Assembly (NCBI GenBank): GCA_021802825.1
Contig: JAJZRG010000017.1
Location: 1 to 64,000 of the forward strand
Origin: Chloroflexota bacterium
GTDB lineage: Bacteria > Chloroflexota > Limnocylindria > Limnocylindrales > CSP1-4
Reading direction: 5' to 3'
Length of the DNA: 64,000 nucleotides
Shown here: positions 10,818 to 45,705 of the stretch, piece by piece
Position numbering within the stretch: position 1 is the first letter of the stretch
How the letters are laid out: each line of letters opens with the position of its first letter
Notes under the pieces: generated by a model
Database searches by the model: none
Told to the model about the DNA's origin: nothing
Seen by the model: the letters and a program-made list of their open reading frames with translations, nothing else
Program-made: the position numbers and the translations under genes

Positions 10818-10908
10818 CCCTTCCTCCTTGCCGGATCAAGGCCGGCCTTGGGTAGTTGGTGATGGCGAGAGACGCTGCCATGTACGGAGATATTCCCGGC
10901 CGGGAGAC

Positions 10909-10935: not shown

Positions 10936-10988
10936 AGAATGGGAGAGGCCAATCTGCCCCTCGGGCGAACGCCGCAGCACGAGGACAC

Positions 10989-30165: not shown

Positions 30166-31458
30166 CTAGAACACCAGGTCGGTGAAGCCGCCTTGGCGCC
30201 AGACGCGAAGGTCGTGCAAGCCCTGCTCCACCAGCGCAAGCACCGCTTCCGTCTCAGCCTCGTCCGCTTCGTTCGGCCAGAGCGGTCGCAGGAGGGGACG
30301 GATGCGCCCGTCGGCATCGTCGAGCAGGCTCGGTTCGAGGCTGACGAGCGCGGCCGCCGACCCGATCGCGTACCGCCGCATCTCGAGGCCAGCCTCGCGG
30401 CCAAGCCGGATCAGCCCGATAAGGCGGTCGTCCCAACCCAACTTCCGGAGGGGATCGCGTGCCGCTCGCGCCACGCTGTCGGCAAGGTAGGGGTTGACCA
30501 TCCGCTCGAGCAGATCGTCGGCAAACTGGCGGTAGCCGTCCGGGCTGAACATCGGGTCCGTGCCGGCGTACCGGTACCGGAGCGCGGCACCGGACTCCTC
30601 GAGAAACGCCGCCCGTAGGAACGCAAGCGCCCCGGGAACGTCGCGTAGCTCGGCCATCAGGCGCCGACCGAGCAGCCTCGCCAGGTACGCCGCCAGGGCA
30701 TGGGTCGCGTTGTGACCGAACAGCTTGGCCGCGGCCAACGGCTCCAGATCGTCCACCGGCACGAGGGCTCCCATCCCCGAAGTCCTCGGCTGGCCGTCGG
30801 GATCGGCCTGGAGACGCTGGACGGGGATGTGGCGGAACGCCTCCACCAGAAAGGCAGCGCGCGACGACGGCGTGATTGGCGCCAGACCGAGAGCGTGCAT
30901 CTCGCCCCGATCGTCCACAACACCACTCATCTTGCCGATCACGGTGTCCGTGAAGCGGACACGCGTCTCGATCTGCTCCCGCATGTCCGGGTCCACCAGC
31001 GCGAGCACGGCATCCCGGAGCACATCGGCCGCGTGGACGTGGTTCTCGGCGCAGTAGACGACGAGAGGCTGGCCGGGCAGCCGCCGCTGGAGAGCAGAGG
31101 CGAGCAGTTGGGCAGGACTCGCCGCGCCGCCGCTGCGGTAGGTGGCCACGCTCGGGAGGGCCGTCGCTGCCTCATCCGCCCTGACGAGCGCTGCGATGAT
31201 CCTCTCGCGGTCACCCTCGACCTGGGAGTTCAGCGGCTCGACCGGACCCGCCTGAGCAGCGGTGCGGCCGTGAAGACCGGCGATGTTGACCGTGAACTGG
31301 CCGCCGTTTGCGCGCAGCTCGGCGACAAGGTCCTCGCGAATGTCCACGACGGTCGGTGGGGCATACGCACCGGACTCATGCGCCTCGAGCAGGAACAGCC
31401 CGGCCTGGATGGGCCCGAAGCCGATGCCGACGAACCGTCGGCTGCCTGTGAAGCTCAT
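30166..31458 (-). CDS. Mannitol dehydrogenase-family oxidoreductase
   Basis: Polyol or sugar-phosphate dehydrogenase of 430 aa. The N-terminal nucleotide motif is 'FVGIGFGPIQAGLFLLEAHE', similar to mannitol-1-phosphate dehydrogenase. 'YCAENHVHAADVLRDAVLAL' is the domain-junction block, and the C-terminal helical domain has 'AAKLFGHNATHALAAYLARL'. It is 20 nt after the DeoR-type chimera with GGAGG before ATG, so both form one operon. The 230 bp beyond its stop towards the P450 hold no recognisable gene. Substrate likely a polyol or ketose linked to the neighbouring sugar pathway; this is inference. Confidence 0.85.
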   Translation of the reverse strand: MSFTGSRRFVGIGFGPIQAGLFLLEAHESGAYAPPTVVDIREDLVAELRANGGQFTVNIAGLHGRTAAQAGPVEPLNSQVEGDRERIIAALVRADEAATALPSVATYRSGGAASPAQLLASALQRRLPGQPLVVYCAENHVHAADVLRDAVLALVDPDMREQIETRVRFTDTVIGKMSGVVDDRGEMHALGLAPITPSSRAAFLVEAFRHIPVQRLQADPDGQPRTSGMGALVPVDDLEPLAAAKLFGHNATHALAAYLARLLGRRLMAELRDVPGALAFLRAAFLEESGAALRYRYAGTDPMFSPDGYRQFADDLLERMVNPYLADSVARAARDPLRKLGWDDRLIGLIRLGREAGLEMRRYAIGSAAALVSLEPSLLDDADGRIRPLLRPLWPNEADEAETEAVLALVEQGLHDLRVWRQGGFTDLVF

Positions 31459-31478
31459 TGTGGCGCCTCCGGAAGGGG

Positions 31479-33221
31479 CTAACCGGCCGGGGCGATGACG
31501 ACCTCAATCCCCGCGCGACTGAGCGCGAGGTGCGTCTCCGCGGGCACCGCTGCATCCGTCACCACCCGATGCACGGACCGGATCCCCGTGACCTGGGCCA
31601 CCGAATCACGCCCGAGCACGCTGTGGTCGGCCAGCACCGTCACCTCGCGTGAGGCGCGGATCATCGCCTGCTTGACCGCAACCTCGCCAAGCTGCGCGTG
31701 CGACACGCCGAACTCGACCGAGAGGCCGGCCGCCACAAGGAACAGCCGGTCGGCACGGAGGTCGTGAAGGGTGTTCTGGGCCACCGGCCCGACCAGCGCC
31801 TCGCCGTCGCGAGGCGCGCCGCCACCGGTCAGGATGAGGTTGATGCTGGGGGCGTCTCGCAATGCCAGGAAGGCGGCCAATGAGTTGGTGATGACGGTCA
31901 GGCCGGTGCGGTCAGCGAGGATTTCCGCCAGACGGGTGGTCACGCCCCCGGTGTCCAGCACGATCACATCACCGGGCTGGATCAACGCCGCGGCCGCGGC
32001 CGCGATCTCACGCTCGCGCACCGCGCGCTCGGCGCGGCGCGACGCCTCGCTGTCGATGACCTCGAGTGCGATCCCCAGCCGGCTCGCGTAACGCGCGAGC
32101 TGCTCGGCCAGCACGCGGTACCAGTCGTGCTCGCCATAGGGCATCACGAAGCCCGCCCGTTTCGGGAGGCGACGTCCGCGTTCCCCAGCGGTTGGCAGCG
32201 CAAGGGGCAGGTCGGCGCCCACGCCATCCCAGTCGAGCTCGTCACACTCCGGGCCCGGGTAGTAGCGGGCGACCGTTTCGGACGTCAACACCCGATGGGG
32301 CGTGACCAGGCTGGCCAACAGCGGCTCGTCCTGACTCGCGAGGATCGCAGCCTCGAGACATGTTGGCGCGACGATCTCGGGGAACATCGCCAGACCAGCC
32401 GGGCAGTAGCCACCCCGCTGGACCTCGCGGCGCATCGCCGGACCCTCGAGCCCGAAGGGCAGCACCGCGACCTCTCCCGGGGCTACGCCACGGTCCTCGC
32501 ATGCCTTGATCGCGCCCTGAGCGGTCGTGTCGTTGATCGCGAAGATGAGGTTGATCTCATGGTGCGCCTCGAGCGCGGCCAGGGTGATCCGGCGCGCGCT
32601 GTCGCACTCCGCGCCGGCGTTGACCGACAGCACCTGGCGGATCTCGACACCCGCCTCACGGAGTCCTGCGATGAACCCTCGGCTGCGCTCGCTCGTGTTG
32701 ACCTGATCGAGCGACAGGTCGAGGGCCGTGACGATCCCGCCGAAGTGCTCCTTCGCGTAGCCGCCGGCCCAGCGCCCCAAGTCAGCCCCGGCGACCAGGT
32801 TGTCGACCGCGACGAGCGTCCGGGCACCGGGTGTCGACACGGACTCCGCGATGACCGGCACGCCCCGCCGGCACGCCCGCTCGATAAGCCCGAGATCGAA
32901 GCGCGAGCCGCCCGAGGCAGTGACAAGAACATCCACACGGTCCAGGACCGACCCGAGGGCGAGCGTCTCGCCGGTACCCGCCGATGCGGGTTCGGCGGCC
33001 AGCCCCGATTCCCCAGAAGTCCCAACGGCGCCACCGTGGACCCGCCGAGCACGCCCTGACTGCTCGAGGTGCAGCAGGTCGCGGCGAATTGTGACCTCGG
33101 AAACCCGGTGCCGCTCGGCGAGCTCGCGGACCCCGGCGAAGCCCTGCTCGCGGATCTGGTCGGCGATCGCCTCGGCGCGCTGAGCGGTCACGGTACGGGT
33201 CGCCGGAGTGGGAGCGGGCAC
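31479..33221 (-). CDS. Chimeric regulator: DeoR HTH - sugar-binding domain - DeoR sensor
   Basis: 580-aa protein of unusual architecture. Residues 14-65 are a DeoR HTH ('VSEVTIRRDLLHLEQSGRAR', then 'VHGGAV'). Residues about 95-325 look like a type-1 periplasmic sugar-binding domain without its first strand ('CRRGVPVIAESVSTPGARTL', 'ERSRGFIAGLREAGVEIRQV', 'INLIFAINDTTAQGAIKACE'). Residues 357-395 ('GFVMPYGEHDWYR' and beyond) resemble the missing first part of such a domain. Residues about 403-560 are the DeoR sugar-phosphate sensor ('PGDVIVLDTGGVTTRLAEIL', 'LILTGGGAP', 'VLADHSVLGR'). It could sense both a free sugar and a sugar phosphate. Divergent from the epimerase-kinase operon. Confidence 0.88.
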   Translation of the reverse strand: MPAPTPATRTVTAQRAEAIADQIREQGFAGVRELAERHRVSEVTIRRDLLHLEQSGRARRVHGGAVGTSGESGLAAEPASAGTGETLALGSVLDRVDVLVTASGGSRFDLGLIERACRRGVPVIAESVSTPGARTLVAVDNLVAGADLGRWAGGYAKEHFGGIVTALDLSLDQVNTSERSRGFIAGLREAGVEIRQVLSVNAGAECDSARRITLAALEAHHEINLIFAINDTTAQGAIKACEDRGVAPGEVAVLPFGLEGPAMRREVQRGGYCPAGLAMFPEIVAPTCLEAAILASQDEPLLASLVTPHRVLTSETVARYYPGPECDELDWDGVGADLPLALPTAGERGRRLPKRAGFVMPYGEHDWYRVLAEQLARYASRLGIALEVIDSEASRRAERAVREREIAAAAAALIQPGDVIVLDTGGVTTRLAEILADRTGLTVITNSLAAFLALRDAPSINLILTGGGAPRDGEALVGPVAQNTLHDLRADRLFLVAAGLSVEFGVSHAQLGEVAVKQAMIRASREVTVLADHSVLGRDSVAQVTGIRSVHRVVTDAAVPAETHLALSRAGIEVVIAPAG

Positions 33222-33314
33222 GGTGGACCCCTGGTGCAGCGTGGAGGGTGAGGTGGGTCACTCACGCGGAGCGTATGCGCGAGTGCCGTGCGAGTCAAGG
33301 GGCAGAGTTTCGGT

Positions 33315-33383
33315 TTCGAAGACGGTGAAAGACATGATTGATCGCATTCGAACTTGACGGGAGCTCAACGACCTACAGATACT
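33315..33383 (+). promoter_or_regulatory. Divergent control region: TTCGAA pair and epimerase promoter
   Basis: TTCGAA palindromes at 33315-33320 and 33347-33352 are 32 bp apart (three turns). The second abuts a -35 TTGACG (33354-33359), followed by an 18-nt spacer and -10 GATACT (33378-33383). The arrangement fits binding by the DeoR-type chimera encoded just upstream on the other strand. Confidence 0.5.
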
Positions 33384-33517
33384 CACACTAGCGCTCGCTG
33401 CGCCAGGGCTCACCCTTTGTGCGGCCAGCGATGGTTGAGCTCGATCATCCAGTCAAGCGGCGACAACCGATCCGTCCGGCGCTCCGTGACGGCGGCGCAG
33501 CAGGGAGCGCAGGAGCC

Positions 33518-34597
33518 GTGGCCAATCGACCAACTCGCTGCTCCGCATGGCCGCTGACCATCGATCACGGGCTAGGCGCCGTGCGCCTGCAGAACGAGCT
33601 GATTGAAGTGACGGTGCTCTCGGACAAGGGCGCGGATATCTACGAGCTTACGTACCGCCCGCGCGCGATCGACGTCCTGTGGAAGAGCCCGTGGGGCCTG
33701 CCCTCCCCGGCGGTGACCCTGCGCGCCACCGCGTCCGAGGTCGCGTGGGTGGATGCGTATCCCGGCGGTTGGCAGGTGATCCTGCCCAACGGCGGCGACG
33801 CCTGCACGGTGGACGGCGTGGAGCTCGGTTTCCATGGCGAGGCGGCACTCGCCGCCTGGGATCACCGGATCCTCCAGGCGGACGACGAGGGGTGCCGTGT
33901 CCAGTTCACCACGCGTCTTCGCCGGACCCCGTTTCGGATCACCCGGACGATGGCCCTCCAGCCGGGCCAGCCCGTGCTCCAGATTCACGAACGGGTCACG
34001 AACGAGGGCGGGCACGCGGTGCCATACATGTGGAGCCACCACCCGGCGTTCGGGGCGCCATTCCTGAGCGAGGCCTGCCGGATCGACGTCGGCGCTGCGC
34101 AGCTGTGGGCCGATGACCTGCGAGCGGGGCCCGCCAATCCGCTGACGCGCGGGGAGCGATACCCCTGGCCGGCCGTCGCATGTGGCCACCGTCTCGACCG
34201 CGTGCCCGGCCAGTCAGAGCCGCGCGCTCTGATGGCCTACCTCGAGGCGTTCGAGTCCGGCTGGTACGCCATCACCAACACGCAGCTGGGATTTGGCGTG
34301 GCGCTCGCCTGGCCGTCGGACGTGTTCCCGTACGCCTGGCTCTGGCAGGAGATGCACGCCTCCCCGGGATACCCGTGGTACGCGGGGACCTATGTCATGG
34401 CGATCGAGCCGGCGACCAGCATCCCCGGGCAGGGCCTAGCCGCTGCGATTGAGAAGACCGGGTCGCACCGGGTCCTCGAGGCGGGCGAATCCGTCGAGGC
34501 CACCTTGGTCGCCGTCTTCTACGAGGGCGCCTCTGGCGTCTCGGCGGTCTCCCAGGACGGACGGGTCACACTGCGGTCGGCCGACGATGCGCCCTGA
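33518..34597 (+). CDS. Aldose 1-epimerase-like mutarotase
   Basis: Cytosolic galactose-mutarotase-fold enzyme of about 359 aa that interconverts sugar anomers. Family features: 'LSDKGADIYELTYRPRAIDV', 'PNGGDACTVDGVELGFHGEA' (with the catalytic-type His), 'SHHPAFGAPFLSEACRIDVG' and 'AIEPATSIPG' near the end. GTG 33518 is chosen because homologues begin near this point; a GTG at 33419 would add 33 unsupported residues. It overlaps the next gene by 11 nt. In sulfoquinovose clusters a mutarotase of this type (YihR) accompanies the isomerase. Confidence 0.82.
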   Translation: MANRPTRCSAWPLTIDHGLGAVRLQNELIEVTVLSDKGADIYELTYRPRAIDVLWKSPWGLPSPAVTLRATASEVAWVDAYPGGWQVILPNGGDACTVDGVELGFHGEAALAAWDHRILQADDEGCRVQFTTRLRRTPFRITRTMALQPGQPVLQIHERVTNEGGHAVPYMWSHHPAFGAPFLSEACRIDVGAAQLWADDLRAGPANPLTRGERYPWPAVACGHRLDRVPGQSEPRALMAYLEAFESGWYAITNTQLGFGVALAWPSDVFPYAWLWQEMHASPGYPWYAGTYVMAIEPATSIPGQGLAAAIEKTGSHRVLEAGESVEATLVAVFYEGASGVSAVSQDGRVTLRSADDAP

Positions 34598-35777
34598 TCC
34601 CGACGTCGTGGTCGCCGGGCACGTCTGCCTGGACGTCATCCCCGAGATCGCAATACGGGCGGACGACCGGGCGGGTTTCGTGATGCCCGGCGTGCTGCGT
34701 GAGGTTGGGCCAGCGCTGCTGTCCACGGGTGGCGTCGTGGCCAACACCGGATTGGCGATGGACCGGTTGGGCATCCCGGTGCGGCTGGTGGGCAAGGTTG
34801 GCGACGACGCCTTCGGACATATCGTGGCTGACCTGCTGTCAAGGCGGTCGGTTCGGGCGGTCGCGGACCTGATCATCGAGCCGGGTGCCACGACGTCCTA
34901 CTCGCTCGTGATCAGCATGCCGGGCGTGGACCGGACGTTCCTGCACCACGCCGGCGCCAACGATTCGTTCCGGGCGGAGGATGTGGACGCCACCGCGCTC
35001 GCCGGCGTGCGCCTGTTCCACTTCGGGTATCCGCCCCTGATGCGCGGGATGTACGCGAACGGCGGCGCCGAGCTCGCGAGGCTGCTCGCGAGAGCAGGCA
35101 GGGCGGGCTGCACCACGTCGCTGGACATGGCCCGGCCTGACCCCACCGCCGACTCGGGGCGCGCAGACTGGGCGGCGGTCCTAACGGCGGCCCTGCCGCA
35201 CACGGACGTGTTCGTGCCCAGCCTCGACGACCTGACGGTCATGCTCGGGGACTCCGGTGCCGCACAGACGGGGGCGGCACCCGGTGCGGGGCCGGACCCG
35301 TCGCGCCTGGGCAAGATCGCCGATCGCCTGCTCGCACTGGGCGCAGGCGCTGTCATGATCAAGCTCGGGTCGAACGGAGCCTACTTGCGCACGTCCGGGC
35401 GCGATCGACTGGCCCGAGCAGGCGCGGCGGCACCTGACCAGCCGGACGCCTGGGCGGACCGTGAGCTGTGGTCGCCGTGCTTCGTTGCCGATGTCGTGGG
35501 GACGACAGGTGCCGGCGACGCGACCGCTGCAGGGCTGCTGGCCGGCCTGCTCCACGGCCAGGGGCCGGAAGATGCGCTGACGAGCGCGGTGGCCGTCGGC
35601 GGCTGCAGTGTGGAGGTGGCCGATTCTGTGTCCGGGGTCCTCAGCTGGGAGGCCACGCAGGCTCGCATGCGTTCTGGATGGAGCCGGGCTGCCCTCGAGT
35701 TGCCGCCTCCATGGCGCTACCATCCGACGACCGGTCTGTGGTCTGGCCCGCGCGATCGCGCGGCGGGGACCCGCTAA
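34587..35777 (+). CDS. PfkB-family carbohydrate kinase (1)
   Basis: Ribokinase-fold kinase of 396 aa. 'STGGVVANTGLAMDRLGIPV' and 'GKVGDDAFGHIVADLLSRR' form the N-terminal substrate lid region; 'TTGAGDATAAGLLAGLLHGQ' contains the catalytic Asp and anion hole. An insertion of about 25 residues ('QTGAAPGAGPDP' region) is unusual. It overlaps the epimerase gene, so both are coexpressed. It meets the second PfkB gene tail to tail, the two stops overlapping by 4 bp. Candidate sugar or ketose kinase of the regulon. Confidence 0.9.
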   Translation: MRPDPDVVVAGHVCLDVIPEIAIRADDRAGFVMPGVLREVGPALLSTGGVVANTGLAMDRLGIPVRLVGKVGDDAFGHIVADLLSRRSVRAVADLIIEPGATTSYSLVISMPGVDRTFLHHAGANDSFRAEDVDATALAGVRLFHFGYPPLMRGMYANGGAELARLLARAGRAGCTTSLDMARPDPTADSGRADWAAVLTAALPHTDVFVPSLDDLTVMLGDSGAAQTGAAPGAGPDPSRLGKIADRLLALGAGAVMIKLGSNGAYLRTSGRDRLARAGAAAPDQPDAWADRELWSPCFVADVVGTTGAGDATAAGLLAGLLHGQGPEDALTSAVAVGGCSVEVADSVSGVLSWEATQARMRSGWSRAALELPPPWRYHPTTGLWSGPRDRAAGTR

Positions 35778-36709
35778 GCCATGCGCTGGGCCGAGGCTGA
35801 CAGGCCAGTCGCGGAGGGTCGGGCAAGGTACTGATCGAGCGAATCGATCGTGGATTCGAGCGGTCCACGCACACCGACCGAGTCAGAGGCCACCTGCACG
35901 GCGACCCTCGCGCTCGCCACAGGGTCGAGTCCGGCGAGCCTCGCGACCACGAAACCCGCAGCGAAGATGTCGCCCGCCCCGTCGGGGTCCACCTCGGTGA
36001 CGGCGGGTGCCGGGACACGCCATCGGCCATCGCTGGTGACCACGGTGGCGCCGTTGGGACCGTTCTTGTGGCACACGATGGCGCCCCGGCCCGTGATCGC
36101 GACCTCGTCACCGCCAAGCGCCTCAAGCTCACCGGCCGATGCCAGGACCACCTCCGCAGCGTCGAGCAGCACCTCGAACTGCCGGCGAGTCCGCTCCGAG
36201 AGGTCGTTCGCGCGCACGTTGGGGTCGAAAGAGATGCGCACGCCATCGCGGATCGCCCGCTCCACGGCACGCCAGCACGTCTCGCCGGTGGCGCCGCCGA
36301 ACCATAGCGTGGCCCCCGACACGTGCAGCCAGTCCGGGGGCGGATCAACATCGAGCGTCTCGGGCCCAGCCGACAGCGCCGCAGATCCCTCGACGTGGAA
36401 CCCGAACTTGCGCCGGCCACCGCCCTCGTACCAAATGAACACTGAGGCTGTCGGTCGAACAGGGTCGACGACCAGGTTCCGCAGCGCCAGCCCGTCGCGC
36501 GCCAATCGCGCCCGGAACTGGGCGCCGAAGGCGTCGTCACCCACGCCGGCGACGAGGTCCACCTCCGCCCCGAGCCGGGCCGAGGCGCTGGCGAAGATAA
36601 CCGGGGCACCACTGGGGAACGGCCCGTGGAACGCGAGCTCGGACTCGCCCGGGTACGTCATGAACGCGGTGATTGCCTCGCCCACCACGAGGATCCGCGC
36701 CCCGGTCAC
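35774..36709 (-). CDS. PfkB-family carbohydrate kinase (2)
   Basis: Ribokinase-fold kinase of 311 aa, only distantly related to its neighbour. It starts 'ILVVGEAITAFMTYPGESEL', more like fructokinase/KDG kinase. The active-site signature is 'DPDGAGDIFAAGFVVARLAG', with Pro-Asp where Thr-Thr is usual and the catalytic Asp retained. Its GTG overlaps the stop of the AGE isomerase gene, so it likely phosphorylates the ketose that enzyme makes. Confidence 0.9.
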   Translation of the reverse strand: MTGARILVVGEAITAFMTYPGESELAFHGPFPSGAPVIFASASARLGAEVDLVAGVGDDAFGAQFRARLARDGLALRNLVVDPVRPTASVFIWYEGGGRRKFGFHVEGSAALSAGPETLDVDPPPDWLHVSGATLWFGGATGETCWRAVERAIRDGVRISFDPNVRANDLSERTRRQFEVLLDAAEVVLASAGELEALGGDEVAITGRGAIVCHKNGPNGATVVTSDGRWRVPAPAVTEVDPDGAGDIFAAGFVVARLAGLDPVASARVAVQVASDSVGVRGPLESTIDSLDQYLARPSATGLSASAQRMA

Positions 36710-37947
36710 GATTTCCTCGAGGTGCTTGTGTCACCCGGCCGCAGCCCGAGGCCAACGGGCAGGTCTGGGAACAGGCAGGCCTGGTACGCGTGGTACGAGT
36801 CGGGCTTCCCCGACCAGACCGAGGATGCCGGGGTACCGTCGGGCGCGAGCTCGGAGTGCCATCCGCCTGCCTCGCGATCGCAGAAGTAGCGGTCCACCTC
36901 GGCCCACAGCCGTGACGCGGCGTCCCGCGCCCGCCCGCTGCCCGTCCTCCGTGCAAGCGCATCGGCCGCCAGGATGCCCTCGGCCGTGACCCAGAAGAGG
37001 CGCGCCTCGACCACGGGGCGATTGTCCCAGTCCACGGTATAGGGGCATCCGATCGAGGTGGGTTCGGGCCAGCCCAGCCCGTAGCCATTCGCGAATAGGG
37101 CTGCGGCGCCCTCGGCCAGCCAAGCGGGCGGTTCGTCGAGCGCCGCGTCGATCGCCAGCAGAAGGCGCGACCACTCGAGCCAGTGGCCGATAGTCAGGCC
37201 GTAGGGCCGGAAGTGGTCGCCCGGGTCTTCGGCGCCGAAGTCGAGCACGGGCCGCCATTCCCGGTCGAAGTGCTCCACGACGCGCCAGCCCGCCTGCCGC
37301 GCGGGCCCGTCCACCACCCGCTCCGCGATCCGCAGGGCGTCGCGCGCGAGCGACCGGTCGCCCAGCGCTGCGGCCGCCGTGAGCAGCGCCTCGACGGTGT
37401 GCATGTTCGCGTTCGCGCCGCGGTACGGCTCCTCGCCCCTCCAGTCGGCACCCAGGTAGCGCTCGCGCACGGTGCCGGTCGCGGGTTCCCAGAACCGGCG
37501 CTGCACGACATCCAGCGCGCGGCCGAGCAGGTCCCTCGCCCCGGGGATCCCGGCGGCGGTGCCCGTGGCGGCGGCCAGCACCACGAATGCGTGGCCGTAG
37601 GCAGCCTTGGAGGCCTCCACCGGGGTGCCGTCCGGCGCGACCGCCTCGTACCACCCGCCGTGGCGGCGGTCCTCGAAGAGGCGACCGAGTGCATCGATCC
37701 CGGAGGCGGCGATCGACCTCGCCTGCCTCGATTCCGCGTGGATCGCCTCCAGCCCGAAGATGTGCGTCATCCGAGCGTTGATCCACAGGTGCAGGGGCTG
37801 GGATGCGTCCGGGGCGCCGAGGTCGTCAAGCCAGGCGAACCCTCCTGACGAGACGACCGACCGCTCCGCGAAGCCGATGAGCCGAGCGCGTTCCGCTGTG
37901 CGCCAAGCGCGGTCGCCGGGGACAAGCGGGGTTGTGTCCATGTGCAC
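36706..37947 (-). CDS. AGE-family sugar isomerase (YihS/mannose isomerase-like)
   Basis: Alpha6/alpha6-barrel aldose-ketose isomerase of 413 aa. 'GGFAWLDDLGAP', 'LWINARMTHIFGLEA' (R59), 'RGANANMHTVEALL' (H183), 'LTIGHWLEWSRLLL' (H255) and 'KPDSYHAYQACLFPD' (H386) correspond to the catalytic arginine and histidines known for YihS. The family includes sulfoquinovose and mannose isomerases, and the sequence does not separate them. AGGAG precedes a GTG (4 nt) and a second in-frame ATG (10 nt). First gene of a two-gene operon with a PfkB kinase. Confidence 0.88.
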   Translation of the reverse strand: MHMDTTPLVPGDRAWRTAERARLIGFAERSVVSSGGFAWLDDLGAPDASQPLHLWINARMTHIFGLEAIHAESRQARSIAASGIDALGRLFEDRRHGGWYEAVAPDGTPVEASKAAYGHAFVVLAAATGTAAGIPGARDLLGRALDVVQRRFWEPATGTVRERYLGADWRGEEPYRGANANMHTVEALLTAAAALGDRSLARDALRIAERVVDGPARQAGWRVVEHFDREWRPVLDFGAEDPGDHFRPYGLTIGHWLEWSRLLLAIDAALDEPPAWLAEGAAALFANGYGLGWPEPTSIGCPYTVDWDNRPVVEARLFWVTAEGILAADALARRTGSGRARDAASRLWAEVDRYFCDREAGGWHSELAPDGTPASSVWSGKPDSYHAYQACLFPDLPVGLGLRPGDTSTSRKS

Positions 37948-38025
37948 GCCACTCCTGTCGGGGTTCCGCGCCCCGGGACGGGCGGCGCGGAGGGCGGTCT
38001 GACCGAGGCGAGGCAGCTGCCCTGT

Positions 38026-38050
38026 CCCGGCCCTTGGGCTCAGGGCCGGG
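38026..38050 (-). terminator. Terminator-like hairpin after the sugar ABC operon
   Basis: CCCGGCCCT - 7-nt loop - AGGGCCGGG, a perfect 9-bp stem located 109 nt past the permease stop and before the AGE gene start. It lacks a U-tract on the expected side but separates the ABC operon from the AGE gene. Confidence 0.5.
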
Positions 38051-38158
38051 CACGGCTATCCCGCGGGAAGAGACATCTCTCCTGCTGCCCGGCGCATCGC
38101 GGCGAATGGGGCATGGGGTGGTGGGGCGATGGGACGATGGGAGGCGCTGCCGCGACGA

Positions 38159-39223
38159 TCAGCGACCCCCCTGTGAGCTGCGCCGGATACGATCAAGCCA
38201 AACGGCAAGGATCAGCACCGCACCGACGGCGACCATCTGCCAGTAGGGCTGGACGCCCATGATGATGAAGCCGTTCTGGAGGATGGCCGGGATCCAGACG
38301 CCGACGATGGTGCCGAACACGGTCGCCACCCCGCCGAACAGGCTGGTGCCGCCGAGGGCGACCGCCGTGATCGCCTGGAGATTGTCGGTCGAGTGTCCGG
38401 CGACCGATGTCGTCGAGAAGTAGCCCAGCGACAGGAAGCCGCCGAACCCCGACGCGAAGCCGCCGAGTGTGTACACCAGCACCAGGTGGCGCTCCACCTT
38501 GATGCCCACCCGCCGCGCCGCCTCGGAGCTGCTGCCGATGGCAAGCGTGTGGCGCCCGAACACTGACAGGTTGAGCATCACGATCCCCACGATCGCCACG
38601 ATCACAGCGATGATGATCAGGTTGGGAATCCCAAACAGCAGGCTAGCCGAGGACACGGGGTTGATCGCGTAGGTCGCGATGTTGACGCCGTTCTGCATGA
38701 GCAGCGCCACGCCAAGGCCGCCGCCCAGCGTGCCAAGGGTCGCAAGCATCGCGGGGACCCGCATGTAGGCGACGACCACGCCATTGATGAGCCCGACGAG
38801 TGTCCCGGCGGCCAGCGAGAAGGCCAGCGCGATGAGGATGTAGCCGATCCCTGACTGGTCGGCGTTGAGATCCACGGCAGTGCCACCGCCGACCGGGATC
38901 ATGCTCAACGCCTTCACCGCGAACACCTCGCCCAGCACGATGCCGGACGGGATGGACAGGTCGATGCCGCCGGTCGCGATCACGAACGTCGTGCCGACGC
39001 TGACGACGGTCAGGATGGCGACGTTCTGGGCCAGCAGCTTGAAGTTGGTGATGGTGCCGAACTTGCCCGGCGCCATGACCGAGAACAGCACCATCACGAG
39101 CAGCAGGAACGCGAACGTGATGAAGGTCGGCGAGGTGAAGACGCGCCGCATTCGCGAGCCGATGGTGTCCGCCGAAGCCGGGGCGACCGCGTTGTCGGTC
39201 CCGTCGGGTGTCTGCGCGCTCAT
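38159..39223 (-). CDS. Sugar ABC transporter permease (RbsC/FrcC-like)
   Basis: Inner-membrane permease of 354 aa with eight to ten hydrophobic segments. RbsC-family blocks: 'FVIATGGIDLSIPSGIVLGE', 'MRVPAMLATLGTLGG' and 'ITAVALGGTSLFGGVATVFG'. Homodimer partner of the ATPase encoded just upstream, with which it overlaps by ATGA. Belongs to the CUT2 class that imports pentoses, hexoses and related sugars. Confidence 0.95.
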   Translation of the reverse strand: MSAQTPDGTDNAVAPASADTIGSRMRRVFTSPTFITFAFLLLVMVLFSVMAPGKFGTITNFKLLAQNVAILTVVSVGTTFVIATGGIDLSIPSGIVLGEVFAVKALSMIPVGGGTAVDLNADQSGIGYILIALAFSLAAGTLVGLINGVVVAYMRVPAMLATLGTLGGGLGVALLMQNGVNIATYAINPVSSASLLFGIPNLIIIAVIVAIVGIVMLNLSVFGRHTLAIGSSSEAARRVGIKVERHLVLVYTLGGFASGFGGFLSLGYFSTTSVAGHSTDNLQAITAVALGGTSLFGGVATVFGTIVGVWIPAILQNGFIIMGVQPYWQMVAVGAVLILAVWLDRIRRSSQGGR

Positions 39224-39993
39224 GCGGCGACCTCGTTGCTGAATGCGCCAGAGATGGCGGCGATGAGCTGGTCCACGTTGACTTCACCGCCCCTGAAGCG
39301 GGCGACGCGCGAGCCGAGCCGCAGCACCTCGATCCGGTCCGCAACCTCGAGCACTTGTGGCAGGTTGTGCGAGATGAAGACCACCGCGAGACCCCGGTCC
39401 CGGATCGATCGGATGAGGTCCAGGACCTTGGCCGTCTGGATCACGCCCAACGCCGCCGTCGGCTCGTCGAGCATGATCACGTGCCGAGCCCACATGGCCG
39501 CACGGGCGATCGCCACGGATTGCCGCTGGCCTCCGGAGAACGATGCCACCGGGACCCGCAGGTCCTGCACGAGACCGACGCCAAGGTCGGCGAAGCTCTT
39601 GGCGGTCCTCCGGCGCATTTCGGCCTGATCGTGGAAGAAGTGCATCCGGCGGATCTCACGGCCCAAGAACACGTTGGCCGCCGCGTCGAGGTCGGGCGCA
39701 AGGGCGAGGTCCTGGTAGACCGTCTCGATGCCCAGCGCGGTCGCGGCAACCGGGTCCGCGAAGGTCACCTCGCGACCGTCGATACGGATAGTCCCTCCGT
39801 CGGGCTGCAGCGTCCCGGCCAGGATCTTCACGAGGGTGGACTTGCCGGCACCGTTGTCGCCGACGAGTGCCGTGACCTCACCCGGGAAGGCCTCGAATGA
39901 CGCGCCGCGGAGTGCGTGGACATGGTTGAAGTTCTTGATGATCGACTCTGCCGCGATGGCTGGCGCGATCGTTCCGTCCACGCGAGCCGTCAT
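39220..39993 (-). CDS. Sugar ABC transporter ATPase (single-domain, FrcA-like)
   Basis: ATPase of 257 aa. Walker A 'VGDNGAGKSTLVKILAG', signature 'SFSGGQRQSVAIARA' and Walker B 'VIMLDEPTAALG' are intact. It has one nucleotide-binding domain, unlike the tandem RbsA type. GGAGG 7 nt before ATG 39993 sets the start; the frame is open upstream through a hairpin region but with no further start signal. Energises import with the adjacent permease and binding protein. Confidence 0.95.
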   Translation of the reverse strand: MTARVDGTIAPAIAAESIIKNFNHVHALRGASFEAFPGEVTALVGDNGAGKSTLVKILAGTLQPDGGTIRIDGREVTFADPVAATALGIETVYQDLALAPDLDAAANVFLGREIRRMHFFHDQAEMRRRTAKSFADLGVGLVQDLRVPVASFSGGQRQSVAIARAAMWARHVIMLDEPTAALGVIQTAKVLDLIRSIRDRGLAVVFISHNLPQVLEVADRIEVLRLGSRVARFRGGEVNVDQLIAAISGAFSNEVAA

Positions 39994-40153
39994 TCGGTGC
40001 CCTCCAGGTGGGCGGTGGAGCACGCCCACCGCGTCGGCATGATGCGTCTCTCGGATTGTCCGCGGCCTAATGCCCGGGTCCAGTCTATGCGCCCTTGGTG
40101 GTCGGTTCTCCGGGTCGGGCGGAGGGGAGTCCTCCCGGCCACGGGCAAGAACT

Positions 40154-40182
40154 GGCCCCCGCGGCGACTCCCGGCGGGGGCC
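40154..40182 (-). terminator. Second hairpin between binding-protein and ATPase genes
   Basis: GGCCCCCGC / GCGGGGGCC, perfect 9-bp stem with 11-nt loop. It follows the stronger hairpin at 40215-40248 and together they may attenuate transcription into the ATPase and permease genes. Confidence 0.45.
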
Positions 40183-40214
40183 CGGATCGACGCCCCGCAA
40201 CGGGGGTGTCGTGT

Positions 40215-40248
40215 GCTGGTGGCGAAGTCCTGCGACTCCGCCACCAGC
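40215..40248 (-). terminator. Strong stem-loop just after the sugar-binding protein gene
   Basis: Arms of 15 nt (40215-40229 and 40234-40248) pair at 14 positions with a 4-nt CTGC loop, beginning 14 nt past the binding-protein stop. Such hairpins in sugar ABC operons stabilise the binding-protein message and reduce downstream expression; that role is inferred. Confidence 0.65.
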
Positions 40249-40261
40249 GAGAAGGCCGGGG

Positions 40262-41281
40262 TCAGCTTCCGCAGTTCGCCTTGTAGATGTACTTGGCGAC
40301 GTCGGGCTGGTTCATATTGTCCTTGGTGACCACGATGGACTCAGTCTGGATCTGGGCGGTGACCGGGGCGCCGGTCAGCGCATTGACAGCCTGCTGGATG
40401 CCCTGGAAGCCGATGTCGTAGGGCTTCTGGGCGACGAGCGCCTGGACGTCGCCGGCCTGGAGCTGCTTGATCTGGTCGGGTCCGGCATCGAAGCCGACAA
40501 CCTTGACGGTGCCGGACTTGCCGGCCTGCTTGATGCCCGTCGCGACACCCTGGGCGGTGAACAGGTTGGTGGCGAAGACGCCGGCGAGGTCCGGGGTCGC
40601 CTGGAGGGCGGCCGTGATGACCTGGGCGCCGGTGGACGCCTGATTGTGGGAGTACTGCGTGTCGCTGACGAGCGTGTAGCCGAGCACCTTGGCCTCATCG
40701 ACGAAGCCCTTGACGCGGAGGTCAACCGTGGACACGCCGGGGTCGGTCGAGATGACGAGCACCTTGGCGCCTGCGGCAAGCCCGAGCTGCTGGAGCGCGT
40801 CGGCCGCCTTCTTGCCGCCGAGCACGTTGTCGGTGGCGATCCGGGACACGCCGATGGACGGGTCGTCGACGACGGTGTCCACAAGGACGATCTTGGTGCC
40901 GCCGTCCTGAATGGTCTTGAGCGGGGTGACCGAGGCCTTGACGTCGTTCGGGGCGACCAGCAGCGCATCGGGCTTGGCGGCCGCGACCGCGCTCAGCATC
41001 GGGTTCTGGAGAGTTGCGTCGAACTTGTCCGGGCCCTGGGTGTCGAGGCTCACGCCAGCGGCCTTGGCCGCATCCTGCGCGCCGCACTGCATCGAGACGT
41101 AGAACGGATCGCCCTTCACACCGACCATCAGCGTGATCTTCTTGCCGGCGGCGGAGGCCTGCGAGGCGGCGGCCTGCGAGGCGGCGGCCTGCGAGGCGGG
41201 CGCGGGGGACGCCGCGCTACTGCAGGCTCCGACGAGCACAGACGCCACGATCCCGGCGGCCACAAACTTGGCTGATCTCAC
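40262..41281 (-). CDS. Sugar ABC transporter substrate-binding lipoprotein (RbsB-like)
   Basis: Extracytoplasmic type-1 binding protein of 339 aa. The lipobox 'VLVGAC' puts the lipidated Cys at residue 20, followed by an Ala/Ser linker containing three copies of an ASQAA-like unit encoded by a 15-bp DNA repeat. Domain blocks: 'MVGVKGDPFYVSMQCGAQDA', 'DALLVAPNDVKASVTPL' and 'DLAGVFATNLFTAQGV'. The GTG start has AGGAGGAG 7 nt upstream. Its promoter carries a LacI-type operator. It delivers the sugar to the permease/ATPase encoded downstream. Confidence 0.94.
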   Translation of the reverse strand: MRSAKFVAAGIVASVLVGACSSAASPAPASQAAASQAAASQASAAGKKITLMVGVKGDPFYVSMQCGAQDAAKAAGVSLDTQGPDKFDATLQNPMLSAVAAAKPDALLVAPNDVKASVTPLKTIQDGGTKIVLVDTVVDDPSIGVSRIATDNVLGGKKAADALQQLGLAAGAKVLVISTDPGVSTVDLRVKGFVDEAKVLGYTLVSDTQYSHNQASTGAQVITAALQATPDLAGVFATNLFTAQGVATGIKQAGKSGTVKVVGFDAGPDQIKQLQAGDVQALVAQKPYDIGFQGIQQAVNALTGAPVTAQIQTESIVVTKDNMNQPDVAKYIYKANCGS

Positions 41282-41313
41282 CGAAGCTCCTCCTGTCCAA
41301 GTGCTTTCTTGGC

Positions 41314-41325
41314 ATGCCGTTTCGC
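41314..41325. promoter_or_regulatory. Secondary LacI-type half operator in the binding-protein leader
   Basis: ATGCCGTTTCGC shares CGTTTCGC with the main operators at 41452, 44196 and 45471. It lies 33 nt before the GTG start and about 130 bp from the primary operator, a spacing that would allow looping. Confidence 0.35.
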
Positions 41326-41451
41326 GAATTCTGTCGAGCGGCCACACGCTTGCCGCCCGCACCAATCTCGGGAAACTGCAGTCCCTGCGTCGCGATCCTG
41401 CCTCAGCTGCGGGGCTGGGACAAAGCCCAGTAGCCTTTGAGCCGTACAGGC

Positions 41452-41494
41452 GCAAACGTTTCGCAGTTTAGGGACGCGTCGGATACGATGTCAA
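41452..41494 (-). promoter_or_regulatory. LacI-controlled promoter of the sugar ABC operon
   Basis: Minus strand: -35 TTGACA (41494-41489), 18-nt spacer, -10 TAAACT (41470-41465), directly followed by operator GCAAACGTTTCGC (41452-41464). The sequence around -35 (GCTTGACATCGT) is identical to that of the aldolase promoter at 44240. The leader to the start codon is about 170 nt. Confidence 0.75.
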
Positions 41495-41562
41495 GCCCAA
41501 GTTGCCGGAGCGTTTCGATTCGCAGCTCCAATCCGCAACACACGCCCCGCGGCGCGAGTTCG

Positions 41563-42111
41563 CTAGCGACATTCGGTGCCCAGATTCGCGCGGATCCAGC
41601 TGACAACCGGCCCGATGTCGAGCGACCCCACGTCGGAGGTGTCCAGCTTGAGGCACGGGCCAATCGCCATGGGCTTGGCAGTGCGGGCAAGGTCCATGAG
41701 TTCGGCGACGTAGGCCTCGGCACTTGGGTGACCTGCGTGCCGCTCACGGCCGGCGTAGCGCTGGGCGAGCAGGTCGGCCGGCGCGTAGCACCACAGCTCA
41801 ACCCATCGGTCACACCCGGCAGCGCGCAGCCCCCCCAGTACGGCGTCGTGCGGCGGAAGGCGGAACCAGGCATCGACGACGACCAGCGCATCGGGCGGGA
41901 AGTCCGCGATGAGCGCCCAGATCGCCCGCAGGCTGGCCCGTCCCAGTGCCCGCCCGAACTCCCGGTCACCGTCGCTGCCCAGCTCGTCGAACAGCTGCTC
42001 CTTGATCGTGTCGAGTGTCAGCAGCGGGACGCCGAGCGATTCCGAGACCGCTCGGGCAACGGTGGTCTTGCCCGACGCCGGAACGCCGTTGACGAGCACG
42101 ACTCGTTTCAT
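41563..42111 (-). CDS. P-loop kinase-like protein (AAA_33 type)
   Basis: Small nucleotide-binding protein of 182 aa. Walker A GVPASGKTT (9-17), a lid segment 'QRYAGRERHAGHPSAEAYVA' and 'DALVVVDAWFRLPPHDAV' match the gluconate-kinase/chloramphenicol-phosphotransferase-like group. It overlaps the ROK kinase gene by ATGA and is the last gene of the aldolase-ROK-kinase operon. Phosphorylation of a sugar acid or a toxic intermediate is possible; not determinable. Confidence 0.75.
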   Translation of the reverse strand: MKRVVLVNGVPASGKTTVARAVSESLGVPLLTLDTIKEQLFDELGSDGDREFGRALGRASLRAIWALIADFPPDALVVVDAWFRLPPHDAVLGGLRAAGCDRWVELWCYAPADLLAQRYAGRERHAGHPSAEAYVAELMDLARTAKPMAIGPCLKLDTSDVGSLDIGPVVSWIRANLGTECR

Positions 42112-43010
42112 GCCGACAACGCGATCAGCGCCGCGCCGACAACTCCCGCCGTGTCCCCGAGTGCGGCGGGGGCTGTCCGCGTGCTGTACCAGGACGATCC
42201 GGGAGGAGCCAAGCCCACAGCCCTTGCCGCAGCCTCGCCGAGCCCGCCCCCGAACAGGACGAGCTCCGGGTCAACGAGCGCGGTGATGATGTCGACGCCC
42301 GCGCGCAGGGAGGCAGCCCACCGCGCGACAACGGCCCGCGCTGCCGACTCACCCGCCGCGGCGCTGTCGAGCAGAGCAAAGGCGTCAACCGGTGTGGGCA
42401 GGCCAGCCTCGCACGCCATCCGATGAAGGCTTGTGCCCGAGGCGAACACCTCGAGGCAGCCGCGCCGGCCGCAGCGGCACACAGGCCCCCTCGGATCGAT
42501 CGTGAGGTGGCCCAGCTGCCCGGCGTTGCCACGTCCGGTCAGCATCTCGCCGCGGTCCGCGATTGCCCCTCCGACGCCAGTCCCGATGGTCAGCATCGCG
42601 CACGACCTGGCGCCCGACGCTGCTCCGACGGCTAGCTCCGCCGTGAGCGCTGCCCGACCGTCGTTATCGAGCACCACCCGCAGGCCCGTCCGCTCCGCGA
42701 GCTTCCCGGCAAGGTCAGTGCCCGCCAGGTTGAGGAAGCCAGCCGACATCACGCGCTGGCCGTCTCCGCTGACCTGACCCGGGACGCCGACCCCCAGATC
42801 GGTGGTACCCGACTCACGAACCTCCGCGACGAGATCGAGGATGAGGTCAACGACCGTCGGTCGGGAATCGGTCCTGACCCGAGTCAGTCGCGAAACCTGC
42901 CCACGGTCGTCAACGATGGCGACCCGGGCGTTCGTGCCCCCGAGGTCGACACCAATGGCCCTCCGACTGGGGCCCGGAACCGCCGACAGCGTCGGTGCGA
43001 CAGGGTCCAC
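42108..43010 (-). CDS. ROK-family sugar kinase
   Basis: Glucokinase/fructokinase/N-acyl-sugar kinase family member of 300 aa. The ATP motif 'GVDLGGTNARVAIVDD' begins at residue 20. 'LDNDGRAALTAELAVGAASG' carries the catalytic Asp. The zinc motif CRCGRRGCLE is intact and the ROK signature 'GHLTIDPRGP' precedes it. There is no N-terminal HTH, so it is an enzyme, not a repressor. GTG start 10 nt after the aldolase stop. Confidence 0.92.
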   Translation of the reverse strand: MDPVAPTLSAVPGPSRRAIGVDLGGTNARVAIVDDRGQVSRLTRVRTDSRPTVVDLILDLVAEVRESGTTDLGVGVPGQVSGDGQRVMSAGFLNLAGTDLAGKLAERTGLRVVLDNDGRAALTAELAVGAASGARSCAMLTIGTGVGGAIADRGEMLTGRGNAGQLGHLTIDPRGPVCRCGRRGCLEVFASGTSLHRMACEAGLPTPVDAFALLDSAAAGESAARAVVARWAASLRAGVDIITALVDPELVLFGGGLGEAAARAVGLAPPGSSWYSTRTAPAALGDTAGVVGAALIALSA

Positions 43011-43020
43011 CCTCGCCGCC

Positions 43021-43920
43021 CTAGACCACCGCTGCCGCGAACTGCGCCTGAAGCTCCTGCAACCGCGGATACGCGAGCTCCTCGAGTCGGCGGCGCTGCT
43101 CGGCGCGGTCAGTGGAAAGGCAGTCCTTCCACAGGGAACGGCCCGCGATCGCACCCTGTGCGCCGTTCGCGAGCGCAATCTCGAGCCGGCCCAGGAACGT
43201 GGTGTGGTCAACACCGGCCGAGAGCACGGCCCACGGGATGTCACCGAGCGCCTCGGTCACGGCGCGGCAGCCCTCCGCGGAGCCCGGATACTGGAGCTTG
43301 AGCACCTTCGCGCCACACTCGCGCGCCAGCACCGCTGCTCCGAGGACAAGGTCGCCGGACTTCGCCTCGAACTCGTCACGGTCTTCATCGGGAAGAGCGT
43401 AGGTCAGGATCTCGATGACCACGAGGGCATCCTCGCGCTCGAAATCCTCGATGACGCTGCGCATCAGCCGGGCAGTGGCCGAGTCCACGCCCTCGACGTC
43501 GGGTCGCAGGTACAGGTTCATCTTGCCTGCGGTGCCACCGAGCTCCCGGACACGGCGGGCGTTGATACCGTCAACCACGCGGCTGACCCGCAGGCCGTGG
43601 TCGCCAGTTGCGTACCCGGTCTGGTCCATGCCGACCATCAGCGCGCAGTCGCGGGCGAGGATCCCCTCGTCGACGACTTGCGGAACGGCGAACTCGGGGT
43701 CGAGGAGCACGCCGGGCGCTCGATTGCCAAGGTAGCGGACGAGGTCGAGCTTCGAGGCAACGAGGTCGCTGTCGTTCACCGGTCGATCAGGGGATTCGAT
43801 CAGAGTGCGCATCGAGCCGCGCTGGTCCATCGCGACCACGAGCATCCGTCCGCTTGCATCGCACAGCTGCTGATAGGCACGCCGCTGGGCCGTCGTCAGG
43901 CTAGTCAAAGGAGCCACCAT
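43021..43920 (-). CDS. Class I aldolase of the LacD/YihT family
   Basis: Schiff-base TIM-barrel aldolase of 299 aa. Family blocks: 'VVAMDQRGSMRTLI' (residues 28-41), 'GILARDCALMVGMDQTGYAT', 'AKVLKLQYPGSAEG' with K208 as candidate Schiff-base lysine, 'PWAVLSAGVDHTTFLGRLEI' and 'AIAGRSLW' with R261. Relatives cleave tagatose 1,6-bisphosphate or 6-deoxy-6-sulfofructose 1-phosphate. R261 is at the position of the Arg that contacts the sulfonate or phosphate end in YihT, so it is suggestive but not decisive. First gene of the aldolase-ROK-kinase operon behind a long structured leader. Confidence 0.88.
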   Translation of the reverse strand: MVAPLTSLTTAQRRAYQQLCDASGRMLVVAMDQRGSMRTLIESPDRPVNDSDLVASKLDLVRYLGNRAPGVLLDPEFAVPQVVDEGILARDCALMVGMDQTGYATGDHGLRVSRVVDGINARRVRELGGTAGKMNLYLRPDVEGVDSATARLMRSVIEDFEREDALVVIEILTYALPDEDRDEFEAKSGDLVLGAAVLARECGAKVLKLQYPGSAEGCRAVTEALGDIPWAVLSAGVDHTTFLGRLEIALANGAQGAIAGRSLWKDCLSTDRAEQRRRLEELAYPRLQELQAQFAAAVV

Positions 43921-43958
43921 CCACTCTTCCGCCTGGCGGCCGGACCGCGCAGGGATGT

Positions 43959-43970
43959 CAATCGTTTCGC
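43959..43970. promoter_or_regulatory. Secondary LacI-type operator near the aldolase start
   Basis: CAATCGTTTCGC, 39 nt upstream of the aldolase ATG and about 237 bp from the primary operator at 44196. Minus-strand TTGACA overlaps it, so a second promoter is conceivable. Confidence 0.4.
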
Positions 43971-44016
43971 TTCACACGGTTTGGCACGTCCAGACGCGAC
44001 GGGAAGTGCACCTCTG

Positions 44017-44040
44017 GCGGCGCCTGCCGGCAGGCGCCGC
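44017..44040. repeat. 24-bp perfect palindrome in the aldolase leader
   Basis: GCGGCGCCTGCC followed immediately by its exact reverse complement. On the RNA it could form a tight stem, on DNA a dyad operator. It lies in the untranslated leader between the LacI-type promoter and the aldolase start. Confidence 0.75.
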
Positions 44041-44077
44041 TCGAAGAGCCGCACGGCCAAGAGGTCGGGACGCCACG

Positions 44078-44118
44078 CTTTGGGGGCCCGATCGTTGTGC
44101 ACGATCCAGCCCCCAAAG
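44078..44118 (-). terminator. Long two-part stem-loop in the aldolase leader
   Basis: CTTTGGGGGC (44078-44087) pairs with GCCCCCAAAG (44109-44118); after a 2x2 internal loop GATCGT (44090-44095) pairs with ACGATC (44101-44106) around a 5-nt loop. Sixteen base pairs in total. It may terminate lacI read-through, attenuate the aldolase operon, or belong to a structured RNA leader. Confidence 0.6.
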
Positions 44119-44195
44119 GTGTCGATCCGGGACTGACCGTGGAGGAGCGCGGGCGTCCAGGACGGTGCTGCGCGGAGATAACTCAACAACGGTGC

Positions 44196-44240
44196 GCAAC
44201 CGTTTCGCAAACGATAGCGAACGGCGGCAGACGATGTCAA
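44196..44240 (-). promoter_or_regulatory. LacI-controlled promoter of the aldolase operon
   Basis: Minus strand: -35 TTGACA (44240-44235), 18-nt spacer, -10 TATCGT (44216-44211), then operator GCAACCGTTTCGC (44196-44208). The architecture equals that of the ABC promoter at 41494. Predicted transcript start near 44204 leaves a leader of about 285 nt. Confidence 0.75.
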
Positions 44241-44297
44241 GCAGAGGCGGTCAGCGGGAGACTCCCGCCGCACTGACTGGGCGTGCGCAGCTGCCAT

Positions 44298-45443
44298 CTA
44301 CATGGGCTGTTGACGAGCCCTCACCGGACCTGCCGCACGAACCCGGGGCCGTCGCGCGGCCTCGGCCAGCACTACCCGCTCGCTTGGCAGACGGCGCGAT
44401 GACGTCCTGTCCTGTGTCTGTGCGAGGGAGGCTGGCGCCAGCGACACGCCGCCGCCCGACGATTCGCGGACCATCAGCTTCGCTTCCAGCGACACCCGGC
44501 GGGCAGGCCGGTCGGGGTCACCCTCGATCCGGTCGATCACCATCTGCGTGGCGGTGCGACCGATCTCGTAGGTCGGCTGGGCGACCATCGTCATCTGCGG
44601 GCGCAGGAACGACGCCCAGTCCACGTCGTCGAACCCCACGTACGCGACGTCATCGGGCACCGCGAGGCCAAGTTCCTGGAGGGCGATCATCGCCCCCGCC
44701 GTCATCTGGTTGTTGCCCACGAACAGCGCGGTGGGTCGCGGGCTCCGGGACATGAGCTCGAGCACGGCCCTGCGGCTCAGGTCGGCCCTCGAGGCACCGG
44801 ACACCACCAGCGACTCGTCGAAGGGGATCCCGGCCTCCTCCAGCGCCCGGCGATAACCGCGCACGCGGCGCTCACTGGAGCTGAACACGTAGTCACCTGA
44901 AACCATGCCGATCCGACGGTGACCCTTCTCGATCAGGTGGGCGACCGCCATGTGTGCCGCCGGCTCGTTGTCGACGGCCACCAGGTCGGCACTGAGGCCA
45001 GGCACCGAGCAGTCGAACAGGACCAGGGGGTAGGCGCTGCGGCTGAGTCGGTCCAACTCGTCGTGATAGGTGCCAGCGGGGCTCAGGATGATCCCGTCGG
45101 CCCGGCGCGCTCGCAGGAGGCGAAGGTAATTCTGCTCCTGCGTCGGGTCGTCATGGGTATGGCAGAACATCACCGCGTAGCCGGCAGCGCCTGCCACGTC
45201 CTCCACTCCGCGCAGCACGTCGATGTAGAACGCGTTGACGTCGGGGACGACGAAGCCGAGGGTGCGCGACTGGTTGGTCTTGAGGGTCCGGGCGACGATG
45301 TTGGGCTCGAAGCCCAGCTCGTCGCTCGCGGCCAGAACGCGGTCCCGGAGCTTCTTCGAGACGCCTCGCGTGCCGTTGAAGACATGCGAGACGGTGCTGG
45401 TCGACACCCCGGCCCGACGAGCCACGTCTCGGGCTGTGGCCAT
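44298..45443 (-). CDS. LacI-family transcriptional repressor
   Basis: 381-aa repressor. HTH 'TARDVARRAGVSTSTVSHVF' at residues 3-22 with hinge 'PNIVARTLKTNQSRTLGF', then a type-1 sugar-binding domain ('GFVVPDVNAFYIDVLRGVED', 'ADGIILSPAGTYHDELDRLS', 'VGFDDVDWASFLRPQMTMVA'). A C-terminal tail of about 50 residues is extra. Its own promoter and the ABC and aldolase promoters share the same operator, so it is the probable local sugar-responsive repressor. Confidence 0.94.
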   Translation of the reverse strand: MATARDVARRAGVSTSTVSHVFNGTRGVSKKLRDRVLAASDELGFEPNIVARTLKTNQSRTLGFVVPDVNAFYIDVLRGVEDVAGAAGYAVMFCHTHDDPTQEQNYLRLLRARRADGIILSPAGTYHDELDRLSRSAYPLVLFDCSVPGLSADLVAVDNEPAAHMAVAHLIEKGHRRIGMVSGDYVFSSSERRVRGYRRALEEAGIPFDESLVVSGASRADLSRRAVLELMSRSPRPTALFVGNNQMTAGAMIALQELGLAVPDDVAYVGFDDVDWASFLRPQMTMVAQPTYEIGRTATQMVIDRIEGDPDRPARRVSLEAKLMVRESSGGGVSLAPASLAQTQDRTSSRRLPSERVVLAEAARRPRVRAAGPVRARQQPM

Positions 45444-45470
45444 GCGACCTGCACCTCCGTTCGCGTTCAG

Positions 45471-45520
45471 GCAACCGTTTCGAGCGATGCAGGATAGGAT
45501 CGGGGATCACGCGCCGTCAA
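45471..45520 (-). promoter_or_regulatory. Autoregulated promoter of the lacI-type gene
   Basis: Minus strand: -35 TTGACG (45520-45515), 18-nt spacer, -10 TATCCT (45496-45491), operator GCAACCGTTTCG (45471-45482) over the transcript start. Same order and spacing class as the two target promoters. The following stretch up to 45705 shows no gene. Confidence 0.65.
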
Positions 45521-45705
45521 GGTCCGCTTCACGTGCGCTTCACGGGCGGCGCGTCGCGGCCTGGTGCCCTCCGGCTGCCCCCTGTCCGGCCGCCCGACTG
45601 CCTTGAGCCTCTCGGATGGCGGCGCGGATCTCGGCCAGTCGCCGGGGCTGCCAGAGTGGCCCGGGTCTCGTCGAGCGCGCAGGTCTCCCCCGCTACACCA
45701 ACTGC

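Follow-up and report, generated by a model that had tools for sequence, protein, structure and literature searches.

DeoR/GlpR/AgaR repressors consist of a DeoR-type winged helix-turn-helix (HTH) that directly adjoins a C-terminal sensor domain (DeoRC; ~250 aa in total), with an intact D-x-G-[T/S]-T loop, and are found in the context of sugar operons. In LacI, AraR (GntR HTH) and XylR (AraC HTH), a domain with the type-1 periplasmic-binding protein (PBP) fold reads the sugar and controls the HTH; these proteins have the canonical PBP order, other HTHs and no DeoRC. RbsB/CUT2 sugar-binding proteins, also of canonical order, are exported and serve transport. A naturally permuted type-1 PBP has been described in Treponema pallidum as well, namely the glucose-binding TpMglB-2 (Tp0684, Type Ic / Cluster Bc), whose crystal structure (6bgc_B) shows the first three N-lobe strands to be supplied by the C-terminus (PMC4990184); it is an extracytoplasmic lipoprotein for transport or taxis, without a DNA-binding or DeoRC domain. 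Permuted PBPs and PBP-type regulators are already known, while no DeoR-PBP fusion or permuted regulator was found in the open literature, that is, outside the subscription journals. Here we describe a protein encoded in a 64,000-nucleotide stretch of a Chloroflexota contig (JAJZRG010000017.1, positions 1 to 64,000; the window) that shares HTH_DeoR, DeoRC and the sugar-operon context with the DeoR/GlpR/AgaR repressors and would work like LacI, AraR and XylR. We consider it likely that this protein regulates transcription in the cytoplasm in response to a sugar, with effector sensing taken over by a permuted PBP domain between HTH and DeoRC, a reading drawn by sequence and prediction from the domain order, its conservation, a single clade, a closed structural model, the ligand cleft, the loss of a phosphate loop and operator-like sites.

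The regulator gene (31479..33221, minus strand, as are all parts of it listed below) is an uninterrupted frame of 580 codons running from a GTG start at 33221 down to 31479, with zero internal stops, and has 30 full-length homologues. The encoded protein has the order DeoR-type winged HTH, type-1 PBP domain, DeoRC, with ~330 residues inserted where the two DeoR parts otherwise adjoin. The HTH occupies residues 15-66 (33024..33179; Pfam HTH_DeoR, E 5e-14), with no Pfam match to a LacI-type HTH in the regulator, and forms its N-terminus, where no signal or lipoprotein peptide of the CUT2/RbsB kind was present; in contrast, a lipobox was found in the canonical relative P0006, described below. A variable linker (residues 67-89, 32955..33023; model and alignment), mostly at pLDDT <50 in the full-length model, leads to the first PBP piece, which extends from N-lobe strand b3 (residues 98-101) to the canonical C-terminus (residues 90-326, 32244..32954; Pfam, model and fold matches). 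The old PBP C-terminus is joined to the old N-terminus by a second linker (residues 327-351, 32169..32243; alignment and domain model), followed by the relocated piece b1-a1-b2 (residues 352-390, 32052..32168; phmmer, comparison with P0006, model and structural alignment) with its H-D-W-Y ligand-cleft motif (residues 365-368, 32118..32129; family alignment). A continuous helix (residues 391-411, 31989..32051) connects PBP strand b2 to the NagB-like DeoRC (residues 404-556, 31554..32012; Pfam DeoRC, E 5e-40), which contains a degenerate phosphate loop, D-T-G-G-V-T (residues 423-428, 31938..31955; family alignment). The first-pass annotation, made from the sequence alone, had proposed a DeoR HTH and a DeoR sensor flanking a PBP fold, and this layout holds, with residue ranges off by a few residues at most.

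The same annotation had suggested that the PBP domain is circularly permuted, or else duplicated and truncated. Permutation, with b3 to the C-terminus first (~90-326) and b1-a1-b2 last (~352-390), is supported by the homologues, a canonical-order neighbour, the phylogenetic tree and the predicted structure. In Pfam, Peripla_BP_4 matched residues 96-292 at profile positions 56-250 of 258 (E 7e-20), and the start of the profile (positions 1-44) was weakly matched in the 338-403 fragment, at ~357-395 (E 0.16); the corresponding fragment gave E 0.04-0.05 in one homologue and no match in three others. Using phmmer, residues 111-319 were aligned with residues 74-286 of the Thermotoga ribose-binding protein and, weakly, residues 363-414 with its residues 12-63, which places b1-a1-b2 behind the remainder of the PBP instead of at the canonical first position. 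The clearest comparison is offered by P0006, a lipoprotein binding protein of canonical order whose gene lies directly behind a permuted regulator in another locus (L081, genome G574). Its Pfam match spans profile positions 1 to 257 in canonical order, and the family profile aligned to it with model positions 340-391 first and 81-325 second, opposite to their arrangement in the regulator. Identity between P0006 and the adjacent regulator was 40.8% over 250 aa (E 2e-65), and 35% over 48 aa (E 8e-7) for the moved piece, with the order swapped. The weak Pfam detection of the relocated piece could also be taken to mean two truncated PBP copies, or a frameshift or assembly error joining two genes. 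We regard this as hardly credible, since each PBP element was found once, the frame has no internal stop, the structural model closes, and the order is constant in 30 homologues from independent assemblies, including one whose gene lies on a single contig of 5.35 Mb and three with genes on complete plasmids. A duplicated, truncated PBP and an assembly or frameshift error were both ruled out on these grounds.

Structure prediction with AlphaFold was used for the whole protein and for the domain alone. The full-length model reached a pLDDT of only 69, so the arrangement of PBP and DeoRC relative to each other is tentative. The domain alone (residues 84-414) was predicted with a pLDDT of 84 and a pTM of 0.81, and its model aligned with 6bgc_B over positions 115-396 (VIA-align; 258 residues, rmsd 3.0, Z 21.6), which suggests that it closes into one two-lobed fold, as a check proposed in the initial reading had envisaged. 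Many canonical sugar-binding proteins were matched at Z ~20-22 by the first piece only, and the predicted model reached Z ~22 against sugar- and inositol-binding proteins; a Foldseek search with the whole model mostly reported the first PBP piece and was uninformative on the permutation. The permuted two-lobed topology of TpMglB-2 is thus found in the predicted model of the regulator, but only b1 and b2 have moved here and b3 stays in front, and with ~15% identity the two PBPs share a topology type, neither a cut point nor close homology. As the cut points differ, the two permutation events were probably independent. In the full-length and the domain model alike, strand 385-390 passes straight into helix 391-411 and from there into the first DeoRC strand; by the secondary structure of the two models, this helix unites PBP helix a2 and the helix that opens DeoRC.

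A whole-protein search returned four full-length relatives from Chloroflexota (Anaerolineae and Thermoflexales assemblies; 44-47% identity), and when 396 genomes of a single Chloroflexota class were searched with a profile, 22 of them had the architecture, four of these matches being the same genes as in the whole-protein search. Outside the Chloroflexota, homologues were sampled through one pattern scan of genomes together with plasmid and phage collections, in which the phage collection gave no match at 1e-20. Three members are encoded on complete Rhizobiaceae megaplasmids (Shinella sp. HZN7 WP_064333067.1, Sinorhizobium mexicanum and S. chiapasense), each with one uninterrupted match that covers 100% of the query. 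Together with 28 aligned full-length Chloroflexota proteins they make up 31 members, all with the same domain order, which answers the earlier proposal of a domain-architecture search. In a tree of un-permuted PBP domains, the 28 permuted ones formed a single clade (support 98/94), whose sister group consisted of P0006, with its canonical order, and a pair of neighbouring binding-protein genes from genome G663; a single origin of the permuted domains is the simplest reading of this tree. The protein of the window nests within clade I, beside that of locus L073 (98/96), and among 61 relatives a full-length regulator was present only in the window's own genome. This nesting, together with the lone occurrence in its own lineage, suggests that the regulator gene or the locus (window 30166-46000) may have been laterally gained. 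Within the 12 genomes of the genus that were searched, the regulator was restricted to the window's species.

As for the origin of the domain, neighbouring copies of a binding-protein gene may have been fused into a DeoR gene and trimmed at both ends. The ABC binding protein encoded next to the regulator was ruled out as PBP donor for the clade I loci compared; these neighbouring proteins resembled the permuted PBP weakly, with ~21-31% identity in pieces, and long branches lie between them. Two adjacent canonical binding-protein genes in one operon (L138:8733-9836 and 10075-11181), 63-64% identical to P0006, represent the kind of tandem duplicate that is able to yield a circular permutation. 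In a 659-aa clade II member (L087:754-2730), ~15 residues near model position 167-181 were matched twice around a short insertion, a possible local duplication in the PBP.

The regulator lies in a sugar-gene context. Downstream of it, after a gap of 20 bp, lies a gene of the mannitol dehydrogenase family (30166..31458, minus strand), and the likely target operon is divergent, starting with a DUF4432 gene (aldose-epimerase-like; 33419..34597, plus strand) followed by a PfkB-family sugar kinase (34590..35777, plus strand). Further on, an AGE-type epimerase and a sugar ABC transporter are encoded on the minus strand (36706..41455), the latter with a permease, an ATPase and a Peripla_BP_4 binding protein of canonical order. 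Genes for sugar import and catabolism adjoin the regulator in nearly all loci, the neighbours being RbsB- or MalE-type ABC transporters, PfkB, ROK and FGGY kinases, D-lyxose isomerase, AGE epimerase, DUF4432, fucose-isomerase-like and GH38 genes; the pathways vary from locus to locus, and in Shinella the regulator heads an operon of ABC transporter and catabolic genes. An Rfam scan of 29.5-46 kb gave no match at gathering scores. The same cluster of the window also encodes a regulator of the LacI family whose PBP is canonical (44298-45443), beside genes for a ROK kinase and a LacD-like aldolase. Members of the URO-D (uroporphyrinogen decarboxylase) superfamily are encoded near regulators in 13 loci in all (cluster C1), including L089, L092, L094, L096, L098, L099, L101, L102 and L104. 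In three loci (L040:5552-7564, L041:5584-7596 and L042:5536-7749) the divergent ABC binding protein comprises two complete PBP domains fused in tandem, as judged by self-comparison, while L039 and the window have a single-domain one; a 742-aa frame of L093 clusters with these fusions and is alike by length only.

The residues of the ligand cleft are among the most conserved of the whole family: E126, R179, N230, D231, G257, F280, P281, H365 and Y368 are invariant (31/31), and W367, E259 and E282 were each conserved in 30 of the 31 members; both PBP pieces contribute. In the moved piece, H365-x-W367-Y368 aligns with N-P-W-F of the Thermotoga ribose-binding protein; in ribose-binding proteins the aromatic pair stacks on the sugar. 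P0006, although an exported lipoprotein with a transport role, has the same signatures (HEWY, IND, FG-x-EG and AMFPE). This conservation bears on the reading in which the PBP is a ligand-free structural insert or a dimerisation module and DeoRC remains the sensor. PBP folds are able to serve as scaffolds, and the domain is placed between two conserved DeoR parts, but the near-invariance of cleft residues from both pieces and their match to a transport-type protein make such an insert improbable.

Decay was observed in DeoRC, in the G-[T/S]-T loop that we take, by analogy to NagB/RpiA-like folds, to be the phosphate binder. SorC regulators, which have NagB-type effector domains, were also used for assigning this role (PMC11229326), and nothing usable on the phosphate-contacting residues of DeoRC itself was found in the open literature. 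Instead of D-x-G-[T/S]-T the regulator has D-T-G-G-V, and T/S at position 426 is present in only 2 of the 31 family members vs. 43/43 ordinary DeoR rows (a set in which three ORFs are repeated and two rows are partial); position 427 has also drifted. The initial reading had supposed that the protein senses both a free sugar and its phosphate. Of this, the first half agrees with the intact cleft, but the loss of T/S in 29 of the 31 members, the window's included, makes the combined reading of sugar plus sugar phosphate unlikely. For such a dual sensor, a coincidence or feedback device with free sugar in the PBP and its phosphate in DeoRC, speak the sugar kinases encoded at the locus and the retention of DeoRC in all members, of E513, K517 and the TGG motif in most, and of the loop as D-A-G-T-T in two (L078 and L084); besides the eroded loop, it is opposed by position 496, where the Gly found in 42/43 ordinary DeoR rows is replaced in 28/31 members. 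Free-sugar sensing by the PBP is therefore more likely than dual reading, and an intact cleft next to an eroded phosphate loop suggests that sensing has shifted from DeoRC to the PBP domain.

Under the favoured reading, that of a PBP-sensing regulator, a free sugar would bind in the cleft, probably the substrate that the adjacent ABC transporter takes up or a first product. Closure of the lobes would shift strand b2 together with helix 391-411, which extends into DeoRC, and the altered DeoRC assembly would release or re-position the HTHs on the operators, by which the divergent sugar operon and the regulator's own gene would be turned on. The best-supported mechanism is that of a putative repressor whose PBP closes on an imported sugar, although we infer both the sign of the regulation and the coupling of HTH and sensor. 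The regulators are predicted to sense an imported sugar rather than its phosphate, and the Rhizobiaceae members make the predictions testable in cultured soil bacteria.

Candidate operators were searched in the upstream regions of the regulator genes. In clade I, the motif TGTTCGAAgTCGAAa was found in 13 of 14 upstream regions (log-likelihood 87 vs. 39-43 for shuffled sequences), and in clade II, 9 of 10 regions carried CGGTCA-N4-CGGTCA, which is a direct repeat (67 vs. 39-41); in leave-one-out analyses, the best site of a locus lay upstream of the regulator in 10/12 (clade I) and 7/9 (clade II) cases. When the window was scanned with a matrix built from other genomes only, the four best matches of the 64 kb all fell within 33308-33448, in the divergent promoter, two of them being the two strands of one palindrome, and when the intergenic region was shuffled 500 times, the best score was reached in 4 cases. 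The best operator candidate is the imperfect palindrome TTGATCGCATTCGAACTT (33338..33355), which abuts a -35-like TTGACG at 33354 (plus strand) of the divergent DUF4432 operon; the second, GTCTTCGAAACCGAAA on the minus strand (33308..33323), lies 30 bp from the first. The Rhizobiaceae upstream regions have a single conserved block in common, CGTGATCGTTTTTGATC, which is a direct repeat like that of clade II.

With somewhat better than even confidence, we propose that a one-time permutation wired a binding protein in-line, via one helix, into a DeoR repressor, after which the phosphosugar site decayed, giving an effector-domain takeover across two phyla with clade-specific operators. The literature searched yielded few natural PBP permutations, namely TpMglB-2 and its relatives, and the present one defines a conserved regulator family that extends beyond one strain. 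It also illustrates how a sensor can be placed in-line within a repressor so that both of its ends make useful connections, as biosensor engineers do by hand. The candidate operators themselves differ in type, being an imperfect palindrome in clade I vs. a direct repeat with a 10-bp period in clade II and the Rhizobiaceae (L140-L142), while the HTHs are homologous.
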